Assembly (NCBI GenBank): GCA_018066965.1
Contig: JAGPVP010000118.1
Location: 1-64,000 of the forward strand
Length of the DNA stretch: 64,000 bases
Direction: 5' to 3'
From: Zhongshania sp.
GTDB taxonomy: Bacteria; Pseudomonadota; Gammaproteobacteria; Pseudomonadales; Spongiibacteraceae
The position numbers and the translations under genes were made by a program. The notes below the pieces were generated by a model. It was not told the origin of the DNA and did no database searches. It worked only from the letters and a program-made list of their open reading frames with translations. Positions 35,172 through 64,000 of the stretch are shown in pieces. Every line of letters starts with the position of its first letter. The stretch's first letter is position 1.

Positions 35172-36287
35172 TTACAGCCAAGGATTGTTCATATATCCCA
35201 ACTTGTGGAATTTCTCTATTAACTCGCGATGACCGAATGCGCCCGCCGCAGATTGGAAGCCAACCGCTTTAAGTTCACCGTTGAGGAGGCGCTCTGAAGC
35301 CTCTGTACATATTTCGCCGGTGAAGGTATAGGGTGCATTGAGTGACAGCGGGAATACGGTAGTGACCTGTCGGCCCTGACCAATACAGGTGATGACGGTG
35401 CGGTGAATGTCTGGGCTGTCTTTGGGTGGTTCTGCTGGCGTCATTTCATCGCCGAACTGGTTAGTCAGCTCTTCTTTTTGAGCTTGATTCATTCCCACTG
35501 ATTCTTTGTTAAAGCGATGAATTAAGCCGACTACGCCTTCGATAATTTCGTCGCCAAAGGCGGTTAGAACTTTACAGTTTCTTACGCGTTCATCGTGCTC
35601 ATACCAGACTGGTTCACAGCCGCCGCTCCAAGGTAGGGCCAGCGCGGGTTGCGACATATGAGGAACCGTAATGGTGAAGTGGCGGTCGCCCTGCCATTCA
35701 ATCATTTCGTTGTTTTTGAGTAGATACTGGGGATTGTTCACCATGCGTAGAAAAGACTTTGTCGACGCTTGCGAGGGCAGTGCATCGTTAATTTGGTAGG
35801 TGAGATCCAGGCTGTCTACCCCCTCTGTTTCAAGCGTCACTTCTGCGGCTAGTGCGCCGGCGCACCACATGTAGCTGTTTGCTGGACTAAGTAATAGATT
35901 TTTTTCTGCGAAGGCTTTGCCGTATTGATCGCGTACCGCGATAACAAAGTCTTGCTCGCCGGTGGTGTCTAGGTAGTGGCAATTTGCTTCGAGGCAGGTT
36001 TCAACAACCGGCCACGCTAATTGCATAAAAGGGCCGGCGACATTGATGACGACTTCGACTTTGTCGAACCACGGTAGCAGCTCCTCGCGGGAGTTGGCGG
36101 CTTGAACAATTGTCGCCGGTGCTTTGCGGCCCAGGCGCTCTTCAACGATGGCGAGTGAGGCCTCTAATTTGTCTTGGTTTCTACCAGCAAAATAGAAGGG
36201 CATGTCGCGTTGCGCCAGGCATTCGGCCACTAGTTTTCCGGTATAGCCGCTGGCACCGTATATGAGTATGCGTGGTGAGTTAGACAT
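35172..36287 (-). CDS. Saccharopine dehydrogenase-like NAD(P)-binding protein (trans-acting enoyl reductase type)
   Basis: RILIYGASGYTGKLVAECLAQRDMPFYFAGRNQDKLEASL. Confidence 0.85.
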   Translation of the reverse strand: MSNSPRILIYGASGYTGKLVAECLAQRDMPFYFAGRNQDKLEASLAIVEERLGRKAPATIVQAANSREELLPWFDKVEVVINVAGPFMQLAWPVVETCLEANCHYLDTTGEQDFVIAVRDQYGKAFAEKNLLLSPANSYMWCAGALAAEVTLETEGVDSLDLTYQINDALPSQASTKSFLRMVNNPQYLLKNNEMIEWQGDRHFTITVPHMSQPALALPWSGGCEPVWYEHDERVRNCKVLTAFGDEIIEGVVGLIHRFNKESVGMNQAQKEELTNQFGDEMTPAEPPKDSPDIHRTVITCIGQGRQVTTVFPLSLNAPYTFTGEICTEASERLLNGELKAVGFQSAAGAFGHRELIEKFHKLGYMNNPWL

Positions 36288-36454
36288 AAAATTACTCCGT
36301 TATTGTCATTATCAAAAATTATTATCAACCAGCGTGCAAAGAAAACTGGTGGTGATTTAAGGTATAGAAAGTGGCTAAATCTAAGAATGCGAATTACGGA
36401 CAGGTTCTTGCGAAATTCGGACAGCGGTGCTAATTTAAAAATAAAAAGGTCGAT

Positions 36455-37471
36455 ATGAAGCCAAAGTATCATTCAGCAAAAACCATACTTTCTCCTCTGA
36501 CACGTTTGCGAGAAGAGGGCATTTCCGTTGGCCAGGCCTTGACTGGAACAGGCCTTTCACTGTCGATATTAAGTAAGCCAGAGCAGCACGTTAACCTCAG
36601 CCAAGAGCTTATGTTTTTGCGTAATTTGCGCAAGGCGACAGGCAATCCGGCAATTGGTCTGAAGGTTGGCTCGTGCTATCCACTTAGTCTGTTTGGTATC
36701 TATGGCTATGCCTTGATGAGCGCGGCAACAGTGCGGGATGCCCTCAAACTAGCTTACGAGTTTGTCGAGCTGAGTTTTGCATTTTATGAACACAAAATGT
36801 CATTTCGCGGTGATCATATTGTGATGAGTATGAGCGCTGACGATTACAATGACGATGATGTCGCGATGCTGAATGAGCGCGAAATGATTGCCACGCTGAT
36901 GATTTTGCGCGGTCTAATGGGAGAGGAATTTCGCTTGCATTCGGCAACGCTACGCAATGCGCCGCAGGCGTCTGCTGCCGAGTACGATAAATATTTTAAT
37001 TGCCCCGTCACGTTTAACGCCGATGAAAATGCCTTAGTTTTTTCCGCTGATTTACTGCAGATTCCAATTCTGCAAAGCGATAGTGATACAGCGAGCTTGT
37101 GCATTGAGCGCTGTGAACGGTTAAAGGCAAGGTTGACAGAAGAGTATGATATTGAAGATGAGGTGCGGGAGTTAATACTGCTGCGACCGGGCTATTTTCC
37201 GACTATTGAAGAGTTAGCTGCCAAGCTAAATATGTCTGGCCGGACCTTGCGACGCAAGCTCACAGCGCAGGGAATTGGCTATCAAAAGATAATTGATGAT
37301 TTACGTTTTCAACTGTCCCGGGAGTATTTGTCTACTACTAACATTAGTGTTGAGCAGATGTCGCTACTGTTGGGCTATAGTGATCCCGCGCATTTTTCTC
37401 ACGCCTTTCGCCGCTGGGCTGGGGTGGCGCCATCAGCGTTCCGCTCGTCATTTGTCTCGGCCTCGCGATGA
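36455..37471 (+). CDS. AraC-family regulator
   Basis: C-terminal HTH LAAKLNMSGRTLRRKLTAQGIGYQKIIDDLRFQLSREYL…YSDPAHFSHAFRRWAGVAPSAFR. Confidence 0.92.
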   Translation: MKPKYHSAKTILSPLTRLREEGISVGQALTGTGLSLSILSKPEQHVNLSQELMFLRNLRKATGNPAIGLKVGSCYPLSLFGIYGYALMSAATVRDALKLAYEFVELSFAFYEHKMSFRGDHIVMSMSADDYNDDDVAMLNEREMIATLMILRGLMGEEFRLHSATLRNAPQASAAEYDKYFNCPVTFNADENALVFSADLLQIPILQSDSDTASLCIERCERLKARLTEEYDIEDEVRELILLRPGYFPTIEELAAKLNMSGRTLRRKLTAQGIGYQKIIDDLRFQLSREYLSTTNISVEQMSLLLGYSDPAHFSHAFRRWAGVAPSAFRSSFVSASR

Positions 37472-61581: not shown

Positions 61582-62062
61582 TTGGTGCTAAGACCCATAA
61601 ATTGTCGTTGTCGGAATAGTGTATATCGGTGTTCTCGCCCAAATAGTGGCGAAGTAGCTCGGCCGGTGCAATATCTGCGAGTGGGCGTAGCACAAAGTCC
61701 CTACTGAGCATTCTGGGGTGTGGGACAATAAGTTCTGGCGTTTGAATATTTGCAGTGCCGTATAACAGCAGGTCGAGATCTAATGTTCTGGCCGCCCAGC
61801 GAATCTCGCGCTGTCTATGGTGCTGGGATTCTATGGACTGCAGGGTGGCTAGAAGCTTTGGCGCCGTAAGTGTCGTGTCGATAGCGATAACGGCATTAAC
61901 ATAGTTGTCCTGCTCGCCGGGGCCAATCGCGATCGATCCATAGAGCCGAGATTGCGAAATTAAAGTGCAATCTGGGGTGTTGGCAAGGGTCGTTATTGCC
62001 GTCAAAACTTGCTCTTTGGGCAGGTTTAAGTTGCTGCCCAGCGCAATATAGCTTCGAATCAT
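61559..62062 (-). CDS. folK: 2-amino-4-hydroxy-6-hydroxymethyldihydropteridine diphosphokinase
   Basis: SYIALGSNLNLPKEQVLTAI…RWAARTLDLDLLLYG…VPHPRMLSRDFVLRPL. Confidence 0.94.
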   Translation of the reverse strand: MIRSYIALGSNLNLPKEQVLTAITTLANTPDCTLISQSRLYGSIAIGPGEQDNYVNAVIAIDTTLTAPKLLATLQSIESQHHRQREIRWAARTLDLDLLLYGTANIQTPELIVPHPRMLSRDFVLRPLADIAPAELLRHYLGENTDIHYSDNDNLWVLAPNDKAITP

Positions 62063-63426
62063 CTGGGCTTGCGGGGGCGGCGGCGTCGCGGAGCGCGAGG
62101 TTTTTCACCAGCGGGAACCTGAGTGAGCATGGCGCCACGGGTGTCTGCGTGAGCCTCTTGGAATGCCAGCCACCACTGTCCTAATCCTGCCTCTACTTCT
62201 CCTGCTTGTTCGCGCAAAAGTAGGAAGTCGAAGCCCGCTCGGAAATAGCGATGATCTAAAAGTAACTCGGCGCGCTTACCTGTGCGGCGGGTGAGTCGGC
62301 ACTGTAATTCCCATATGTCGCGCATTGGCAAAGAAAATCGCTTGGGAATGGCAACAGTTTGCTGTTGTTTATGCAATACGCGCTCGGCGGCTTGGTGTAG
62401 TGCTGGAATTTCTGGAACACCGCTATCCAGAATTTCTTTGTGAATACGTTTTACGACGGGCCACAGTAGTACCGCGTAGATAAATGCCGGGGTGACGTGT
62501 TTATCTTCGGCAATTCTCGCGTCGGTATTGATGAGGCCTTGTTGAATAATCGCCTCTGCAGCCGGCTCGTGCTGATTCAGCATTTTCTGGGTTGCGGGGA
62601 ACAGAGGGCTGAAAAGACCGTAGCGCTGCAAAAGCGCGTAAGTTTGAATGCCCTGGCCAGACATTAGGAGCTTGATCACTTCATCAAACATCCGCGCAGC
62701 GGAAATGTCGGTCAGCAGTGGTGCCAGGCGTTTTAGCGGCTCTTCGGTGCGTTGTTCGATATCAAAGTTGAGCTTGGCGGCAAAGCGGACAACTCTGAGC
62801 ATTCTGACGGGATCTTCGCGATAGCGTGTCTCAGGATCGCCGATAATGCGTATGAGCTTGCGCTCTAAGTCTTGCATGCCGCCAACATAATCGTAAACGC
62901 AGAAGTCGCGACTTGAATAATAGAGGGCGTTGATGCTTAGGTCGCGGCGCGCGGCATCTTCTTCCACCGATCCGTAAACATTGTCACGGGTAAGCATGCC
63001 TGATTCAGTGCGGGCGGAGTGCTTGTTGCGCTGAGCGCTGGAGGCGTCGTGGCCGCCCCGAAACGTGGTGACCTCAATGATTTCGTTGCCGAAGCGCACG
63101 TGCACAATGCGAAACCGGCGGCCGATGATTCGGCTGTTGCGGAATGCACCGCGAACTTGCTCAGGAGTTGCATTGGTCGCGATGTCAAAATCTTTGGGTT
63201 GGCCGCCCAAAAGCAAGTCGCGAACGCCGCCGCCCACCAAGTAGGCATCGAAGCCCTCTTCGTTTAGGCGTCGAATAACTTTAATTGCGGCGTCGCTGAT
63301 ATTTTTGCGGGAAACGCAGTGCTCATCTCGCGGAATAATGGTCGCGGAGTTTGGCGCGTATTGGGTGGGTTTGGAAAACTTGCCAGAGAGTTTTTTCCAG
63401 AGCCCGGTCACGGAGCTAGATGTCAT
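62059..63426 (-). CDS. pcnB: Poly(A) polymerase I
   Basis: AYLVGGGVRDLLLGGQPKDFDIATNATPEQVR…RRDLSINALYY…YREDPVRMLRVVRFAAKL; C-terminal RAPRRRRPRKPR. Confidence 0.94.
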   Translation of the reverse strand: MTSSSVTGLWKKLSGKFSKPTQYAPNSATIIPRDEHCVSRKNISDAAIKVIRRLNEEGFDAYLVGGGVRDLLLGGQPKDFDIATNATPEQVRGAFRNSRIIGRRFRIVHVRFGNEIIEVTTFRGGHDASSAQRNKHSARTESGMLTRDNVYGSVEEDAARRDLSINALYYSSRDFCVYDYVGGMQDLERKLIRIIGDPETRYREDPVRMLRVVRFAAKLNFDIEQRTEEPLKRLAPLLTDISAARMFDEVIKLLMSGQGIQTYALLQRYGLFSPLFPATQKMLNQHEPAAEAIIQQGLINTDARIAEDKHVTPAFIYAVLLWPVVKRIHKEILDSGVPEIPALHQAAERVLHKQQQTVAIPKRFSLPMRDIWELQCRLTRRTGKRAELLLDHRYFRAGFDFLLLREQAGEVEAGLGQWWLAFQEAHADTRGAMLTQVPAGEKPRAPRRRRPRKPR

Positions 63427-63555
63427 TGATGTTTGTGCTTAGCCGATAACTATTATGAAGCCGGTATTCTAGCACAGGCTTATTTCTAGTGTTGTTAAAG
63501 GATTGGTGGAATTTTGGCTTTGGCTGTGTAACTGGAGGCAAGTTAAATTTTGGAG

Positions 63556-63592
63556 CTTCTAAAACGAAGAAGGGGAAAACATTGTCTTCCCC
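63556..63592 (-). terminator. Terminator-like hairpin of the candidate sRNA
   Basis: Minus strand GGGGAAGAC-AAT-GTTTTCCCC then TTCTTCGTTTT. Confidence 0.7.
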
Positions 63593-63676
63593 ACCCAGGT
63601 CTCTTTGCTTTTGTATTATTATTATTCTTTCTCTGTTTTCTTATTATTATTTTGTTTTTTTATTATTCTTCGCTCC
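63556..63676 (-). ncRNA. Candidate CrcZ-like Hfq/Crc-sequestering sRNA
   Basis: Minus strand between cbrB-like and pcnB; repeated AAnAAnAA words (AAGAATAATAAAAAAACAAAATAATAATAAGAA…AAAGAATAATAATAATAC) downstream of a GG-N10-GC promoter; ends in a hairpin. Confidence 0.75.
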
Positions 63677-63680
63677 CAAT

Positions 63681-63700
63681 ATAGAGCATATGCCGTGCCA
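63681..63700 (-). promoter_or_regulatory. Sigma-54 (-24/-12) promoter
   Basis: Minus strand TGGCACGGCATATGCT: GG-N10-GC, one mismatch to TGGCACG-N4-TTGCW. Confidence 0.82.
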
Positions 63701-63796
63701 GTTTTGTTTTTTCCTTTACTATCAGTATCTTACTGTTTTTTGTGCTCGTATTTGGGCTTTGCATATTTGTAAATTGTTACCTTACTAAACGCCCTT

Positions 63797-63823
63797 TGTT
63801 ACGATTGCTTGTGGCGGGTAACG
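63797..63823 (-). promoter_or_regulatory. Candidate CbrB-type upstream activating palindrome
   Basis: Plus strand TGTTAC-N15-GTAACG, with an additional TGTTAC at 63775-63780; ~110-135 nt upstream of the -12 element. Confidence 0.6.
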
Positions 63824-63837
63824 CCTCCGTTTTAATT

Positions 63838-64000
63838 CTATGAGCCTGAACGGGAACTAACCTTCTTGCGTGGAATGCCCAATCGTTGGCGGCGCTCCCA
63901 CAGACATTTTCTGCTGACGCCGAGTTTCTGTGCCAGTTCGGTTTCGCTCATAGAATCCTGGTGTTCGAGTACAAAGCGTTGGAAATAGTCCTCCAGTGAG
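63838..64000 (-). CDS. cbrB: 3' end of CbrB-like sigma-54-dependent response regulator (partial)
   Basis: SLEDYFQRFVLEHQDSMSETELAQKLGVSRKCLWERRQRLGIPRKK: Fis-type HTH; adjacent to pcnB as in Pseudomonas. Confidence 0.85.
   Translation of the reverse strand, partial: SLEDYFQRFVLEHQDSMSETELAQKLGVSRKCLWERRQRLGIPRKKVSSRSGS

Follow-up and report, generated by a model that had tools for sequence, protein, structure and literature searches.

The DNA analysed here, a stretch of 64,000 nucleotides called the window below, is part of contig C120 of a Zhongshania MAG of 3.66 Mb that is 84% complete and 6% contaminated. Across the window and the flanking contig the genes run dksA, gluQ-like, cbrA, cbrB, an intergenic gap, pcnB, folK, a kinase gene, panB and panC, and the arrangement dksA-gluQ-cbrA-cbrB-gap-pcnB-folK-panB is the Pseudomonas gene order. 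On the minus strand, positions 63838..64000 hold the 3' end of cbrB, a sigma-54 activator/response regulator with REC and Sigma54_activat domains; the complete minus-strand ORF extends to contig position 65277 and encodes 479 aa, and its product is 60-64% identical to the CbrB proteins adjoining Pseudomonadaceae crcZ loci. The N-terminal 600 aa of CbrA match PDB 10ed, a chain of 606 aa, at 5e-170, and the remainder of the protein is a histidine kinase. The 10ed record is named only 'histidine kinase'; we take it to be the Pseudomonas CbrA structure of PMC13022988. On the other side of the gap lies pcnB for poly(A) polymerase (62059..63426, minus strand), whose product is 99.6% identical to the Zhongshania aquimaris homologue. 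The gap between cbrB and pcnB is 63.5% A+T. The MAG also holds this locus from a second Zhongshania strain (contig C92, ~36217-36496, L107), with a cbrB ~95% identical to that of the window, and such second-strain copies agree with the 6% contamination.

The gap carries a putative CbrB-dependent promoter on the minus strand. Three CbrB-type half-sites, F1 (CGTTAC against the consensus TGTTAC, 63818..63823), R1 (GTAACA, 63797..63802) and R2 (GTAACA, 63775..63780), lie at -123, -102 and -80 from the -24 element, where 0 is the T of TGGCAC for every promoter distance given here. Along the strand of the predicted RNA they read cGTTAC-N15-GTAACA-N16-GTAACA, the same F1-R1-R2 succession as in Pseudomonas crcZ; this order was mapped by mutation in P. 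putida, and the half-site consensus is also that of P. putida (PMC6296734). An IHF-like box, TAAGATACTGATA, with one mismatch to YAANNNNTTGATW, follows at -32 (63720..63732, minus), and a box in the same register is found in nearly all relatives as well as in most Pseudomonadaceae-type crcZ loci. IHF is reported to assist crcZ and crcY of P. putida (PMC6296734). The sigma-54 -24/-12 promoter itself, TGGCACGGCATATGCT (63700-63685, minus), is conserved in all Spongiibacteraceae loci and is the sole exact TGGCAC-N6-TGC in the 64 kb window. Half-sites, sigma-54 promoter and A-rich tracts were present in every Spongiibacteraceae locus examined. For F, R1, R2, IHF-like box, sigma-54 element and first AAnAAnAA word, the layout of the window is -123/-102/-80/-32/0/+30, while Pseudomonadaceae-type crcZ loci show about -124/-103/-82/-32/0/+29 (with R1 at about -104 in those scoring >250 bits with Rfam CrcZ), mostly with YAANNNNTTGATW as the IHF-like box. 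We regard the relation between the two promoters as homology and not mere resemblance.

A compact CrcZ-like sRNA of ~114 nt is predicted downstream of this promoter (63561..63674, minus strand), its start being placed by the spacing from the sigma-54 element and by the Rfam CrcZ 5' end in relatives. In Spongiibacter relatives the Rfam model RF01675, despite a score under its cut-off, puts its first position on the base that matches the predicted start, and then jumps almost the whole interior of the model to reach the 3' tail. The RNA contains three A-rich tracts, each of the form (AAN)5, at 63656..63670, 63637..63651 and 63615..63629 (all minus). AAnAAnAA words have 10 starts within 60 nt at this site, against 3 in the best other 60-nt stretch of the window. 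The longer word (AAN)4AA has 54 matches in the genome, of which 3 are in the gap and 4 in or beside the second-strain copy on C92; three such sites within ~55 nt occur nowhere in the genome except in the cbrB-pcnB gap and that copy. In the compact homologues (n=28) there are two to four AAN runs, usually three, accompanied by the CCTGG[A/G]T box and a hairpin. Across these 28 sequences, minority letters in the three tracts amount to 4% at the first base of the triplet, 6% at the second and 32% at the third, where the share of A is 96%, 94% and 20%, respectively. Judged from these substitutions, the A-A-N periodicity is under strong selection. Given that the distal face of Hfq offers A-R-N pockets (PMC6422490), triplets in which AA is fixed and the third base is free are the pattern to be expected of distal-face binding.

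The 3' end of the predicted RNA is a box followed by an intrinsic terminator. The box, ACCTGGGT (63593..63600, minus), stands directly before the hairpin GGGGAAGAC-AAT-GTTTTCCCC (63572..63592, minus), which has a 9-bp stem and a U-rich tail to ~63561. Among 78 distinct sequences from other families, the stem covaries strongly, with 94 double-change cells as compared with a mean of 23.7 after shuffling and 3-13 after sliding, and 93% of its cells are paired. This alignment was fitted to the model and favours the structure, but the individual folds agree. The 28 close sequences taken by themselves give only weak covariation, as their stems hardly vary. The box, as ACCTGG[A/G]T, is near-invariant in all compact relatives even though it is mostly unpaired, and Hfq titration offers no explanation for it. 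Two further candidate features were rejected: a helix between the two ends of the RNA (5' GAAGAA with UUCUUC of the 3' tail), suggested by a single-sequence fold, occurs only in close Zhongshania relatives and is not a conserved structure, and a CsrA-type GGA site in CCTGGATG was ruled out on the ground that CCTGGGTG stands there in the window and in its congeners. A previous sequence-only reading of this DNA had named four elements in the gap, namely TGTTAC/GTAAC words, a sigma-54 element, A-rich words of the Hfq/Crc type and a terminator hairpin, and all four are present, in the cbrB-pcnB location that it had given. Its assignment to a CbrB-type regulator and sigma-54 is supported by spacings within 0-2 bp of real Pseudomonas crcZ, its A-rich motifs resolve into the three (AAN)5 tracts, and its estimate of 115-120 nt is close to the ~114 nt predicted here. 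Only its strand label needs correcting: the half-site forms that it quoted for the minus strand are plus-strand readings (TGTTAC at 63797-63802, N15, GTAACG at 63818-63823, and a further TGTTAC at 63775-63780).

The predicted RNA shares with Pseudomonas CrcZ (RF01675) and its relatives CrcY and CrcX the F-R-R/IHF-like/sigma-54 promoter of CbrB, the position in the cbrB-pcnB gap, several AAnAAnAA tracts beginning at +29/+30, an intrinsic terminator and a 5' A-rich end that can be aligned to the Rfam model. In contrast to Pseudomonas CrcZ, which is ~400 nt long with six tracts, it has ~114 nt and three tracts, lacks the structured conserved middle domain, and has the near-invariant CCTGGRT box before its terminator. 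A fragment of P. aeruginosa CrcZ, CrcZ(1-151), with three A-rich stretches gave three Hfq-shifted bands, apparently one hexamer per stretch (PMC4063720). The content of this fragment, three A-rich stretches, is that of the compact RNA; CrcZ(1-151), however, is a laboratory truncation, whereas the compact RNA is a natural full-length form with its own terminator. At its gathering threshold RF01675 had no match in the window, at E<=0.001 it had none anywhere in the MAG, and a gathering scan of 12 relatives with Rfam likewise gave no match; RF01675 scores of relatives are 18-24 bits against a gathering cut-off of 95 bits. Several marks of a CrcZ in the functional sense are in place: the gene lies between cbrB and pcnB; F1-R1-R2 stand upstream of a sigma-54 promoter with spacing within 0-2 bp of Pseudomonadaceae (no occupancy data); several A-A-N motifs fit for Hfq distal faces are present as three (AAN)5 tracts with triplet-wise selection (no binding data); and the RNA is non-coding with its own intrinsic terminator. 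Of the required partners, CbrA, CbrB, RpoN and Crc are present, and hfq was not found in the incomplete MAG. The Rfam cut-off and the expectation of ~400 nt with a conserved middle domain were tested and not met, thus we class the RNA as a CrcZ variant and not as a member of RF01675.

A covariance model built on the 28 compact RNAs (R1; its E-values are rough owing to a shortened calibration) matches 71 of 392 Pseudomonadales genomes. RF01675 also matches 71/392, 19 of them above its cut-off, and the two models combined, with the lists compared by hand, cover 127/392 genomes in 21 families. In a class-wide sample of 369 genomes R1 matched only the window's own genome and none outside the order. 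We examined 52 further loci from families other than that of the window. In 50 of them a recognisable cbrB and/or pcnB is arranged as expected, and half-sites and a sigma-54 element stand at roughly the distance predicted; a few of the 52 come from families represented among the 28 training sequences and are not fully independent. The remaining two, both of family f14 (L196, ~2461-2613; L221, ~582-735), are unlinked: each unit has a sigma-54 element and no cbrB or pcnB neighbour, as would a CrcY/CrcX paralogue. Elsewhere one cbrB-pcnB gap holds tandem CrcZ-like units (L180, L182, L183, L190-L193, L197, L199, L200, L203, L207, L210, L212): two units, apparently three in L210 and L212, and mostly with an F-R-R and sigma-54 promoter of its own for each of two. 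In Halieaceae-like loci (L187, L194, L198, L202, L209, L213, L226-L228, L230, L231, also L020, L025, L034) two RNA modules lie ~100-700 nt apart in the gap. No sigma-54 element can be recognised for the second module, which may form one bipartite transcript with the first or have a second promoter type.

The partner proteins were sought in the genome and in its relatives. The crc gene is an ORF between pyrE and rph on contig C6 (110967-111746), and the best PDB match of its product is Crc 4jg3 (6.9e-60). In the Hfq/Crc/amiE complex K135, K139, R140 and R141 touch RNA, and R140E abolishes repression (PMC6422490). All four residues are kept in the Zhongshania protein and in all orthologues examined from seven further families, while in a paralogous exonuclease R141 alone remains. 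Two further RNA contacts of P. aeruginosa Crc, R138 and R196, are missing from the Zhongshania protein. Outside Pseudomonadaceae, residue 138 of Crc orthologues is Asn or His and R196 and R230 are mostly absent, and with these changes the Hfq/Crc/RNA assembly may differ in detail. rpoN is present in two copies (C77, C78), which we ascribe to the two strains in the MAG. The 84%-complete MAG yielded no hfq; the gene is present in 55/58 relatives and in 52/52 near-complete ones, so its absence is taken as incompleteness. Hfq of the closest relative has the distal residue Tyr25 and the usual distal-face stretch. The sequence-only reading had placed the RNA outside the pseudomonads and had asked for crc, cbrA and RpoN in the genome and for conservation of the -24/-12 element and A-rich tracts. 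The host is Zhongshania, of the Spongiibacteraceae, the three genes are all there, and the two elements are conserved in all relatives examined; hfq, not found in the genome at hand, is in all near-complete relatives, and none of the refuting conditions of that reading that sequence data could address was fulfilled. Its proposal that the RNA occurs beyond Pseudomonadaceae proved too narrow and not too far, the RNA being clade-wide.

Taken together, it is highly probable that the gap encodes a compact homologue of CrcZ, a CbrB/sigma-54-driven Hfq/Crc sponge, in which transcription, dependence on CbrB and RpoN, binding and sponge action are all inferred. The comparisons demonstrate the anatomy of the locus, its conservation, the homology of its promoter and the partner proteins in the genome or in relatives; for sponge function, homology and sequence are the basis of the inference. 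Under shortage of preferred carbon, CbrA would act on CbrB to give its phosphorylated form, which on the F-R-R sites and assisted by IHF would activate sigma-54 polymerase at the -24/-12 element. The resulting ~114-nt non-coding RNA would end at its own hairpin before pcnB, and each (AAN)5 tract, with Crc joining in, would fill the greater part of the distal face of an Hfq hexamer. With three tracts and one hexamer for each, one RNA could titrate about three Hfq/Crc units. Such titration would relieve translational repression and allow catabolic mRNAs to be translated. A search for targets through (AAN)5 sites elsewhere in the genome found few at gene starts and no convincing catabolic set.

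An RNA with the same CbrB/sigma-54 control could instead act mainly as an Hfq sRNA of the classical base-pairing kind or as a general Hfq competitor, and not as a Crc-dependent sponge. The near-invariant ACCTGGRTGGGG box, unexplained by titration, and the loss of the Crc contacts R138 and R196 speak for such a role, but selection that holds the A-A of each A-A-N triplet and leaves the third base free fits the Hfq distal face and not a pairing seed, and Crc, encoded in the genome, retains the K139-R140-R141 patch that contacts RNA. We consider this reading unlikely. It is very unlikely that the A-rich stretch and the hairpin are instead the 5' leader or attenuator of pcnB, with the hairpin governing read-through. 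Although pcnB follows ~135 nt downstream as the next gene in this orientation, and the terminator has no pure U-run behind its stem, pcnB has a probable separate promoter downstream of the terminator, the extended -10-like TGTGCTAGAAT (63466..63476, minus); comparison shows an element of this type in nearly all Spongiibacteraceae loci, at 43-84 nt upstream of pcnB, whereas a sigma-70 promoter scan of the region found none. Moreover, no conserved alternative anti-terminator pairing was seen, tandem-copy genomes have two promoter-RNA-terminator units per gap, the f14 copies adjoin neither cbrB nor pcnB, and in Pseudomonas the homologous RNA exists as a free sRNA (PMC8871633). A short coding region for a Lys/Asn-rich leader peptide would account for the AAN periodicity, given that AAN codons specify Lys or Asn and that freedom at the third position resembles codon degeneracy; however, the three tracts are in three different frames with TAA stops inside them, and the predicted RNA has no ORF and no start codon before the terminator module, making this explanation hardly credible. 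Chance assembly of motifs in A-rich intergenic DNA, for which only the 63.5% A+T of the gap could be adduced, can practically be dismissed, since 20,000 first-order Markov simulations of the gap gave the promoter core 4 times and a cluster of A-words as dense as the real one 77 times, but neither F-R-R (0) nor the full set (0/20,000) even once, and since position and sequence are conserved across many families.

A compact CrcZ homologue in Zhongshania would bear on how widely this regulation is distributed. A 2022 review regards CbrAB as unique to Pseudomonadaceae, with Pseudomonas and Azotobacter as exclusive hosts (PMC8871633), and the CbrB-regulon paper likewise considers CbrAB and crcZ exclusive to Pseudomonas/Azotobacter (PMC6296734). 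The sequences compared here contradict this exclusivity. In open-access full text we found no paper pairing CrcZ with Marinobacter or Cellvibrionales, or CbrB with Cellvibrio; co-mentions of CrcZ and Halomonas there at least partly have Halomonas in the references only, and as subscription literature was not covered, earlier notice is not excluded. The same promoter and sponge logic appears in the marine and halophilic families Spongiibacteraceae, Halieaceae, Marinobacteraceae and Halomonadaceae, and it predicts carbon-preference control of the Hfq/Crc type in organisms where nobody has looked. The compact form would represent a minimal sponge made by nature, with no more than three Hfq sites and a terminator, and opens the question of what purpose the other 290 nt of CrcZ serve.

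In a CbrB tree of 64 rows, in which family names are partly inferred, one branch with 100/100 support parts the lineages with compact RNAs (Spongiibacteraceae, Halieaceae) from those with long RNAs (Marinobacteraceae, Halomonadaceae, Oceanospirillaceae, Alcanivoracaceae and Pseudomonadaceae-type loci). Because the tree is midpoint-rooted, it does not show whether the compact or the long state is older. We can only tentatively propose that CbrAB-CrcZ-Hfq/Crc is an ancient trait of Pseudomonadales (GTDB) whose RNA architectures split once, Cellvibrionales-type families having a minimal sponge of three sites and the others a long form, and that the compact ACCUGGRUGGGG 3' module has a second function or partner. 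The long CrcZ-like RNAs of Marinobacter and Halomonas relatives lie in the same gap as the compact RNA and have CbrB sites, a sigma-54 element and AAN tracts as it does, but they are ~300-500 nt long and have other middle domains, the Halomonas type with more tracts between hairpins. On inspection the Halomonas-type loci have the same architecture even though both RF01675 (at gathering, in the sample tested) and R1 miss them. In Halomonadaceae (L039-L080), many AAN tracts between hairpins are accompanied by a conserved pair of boxes, TGTTTTGAATACGAG and GCGTATTCA.
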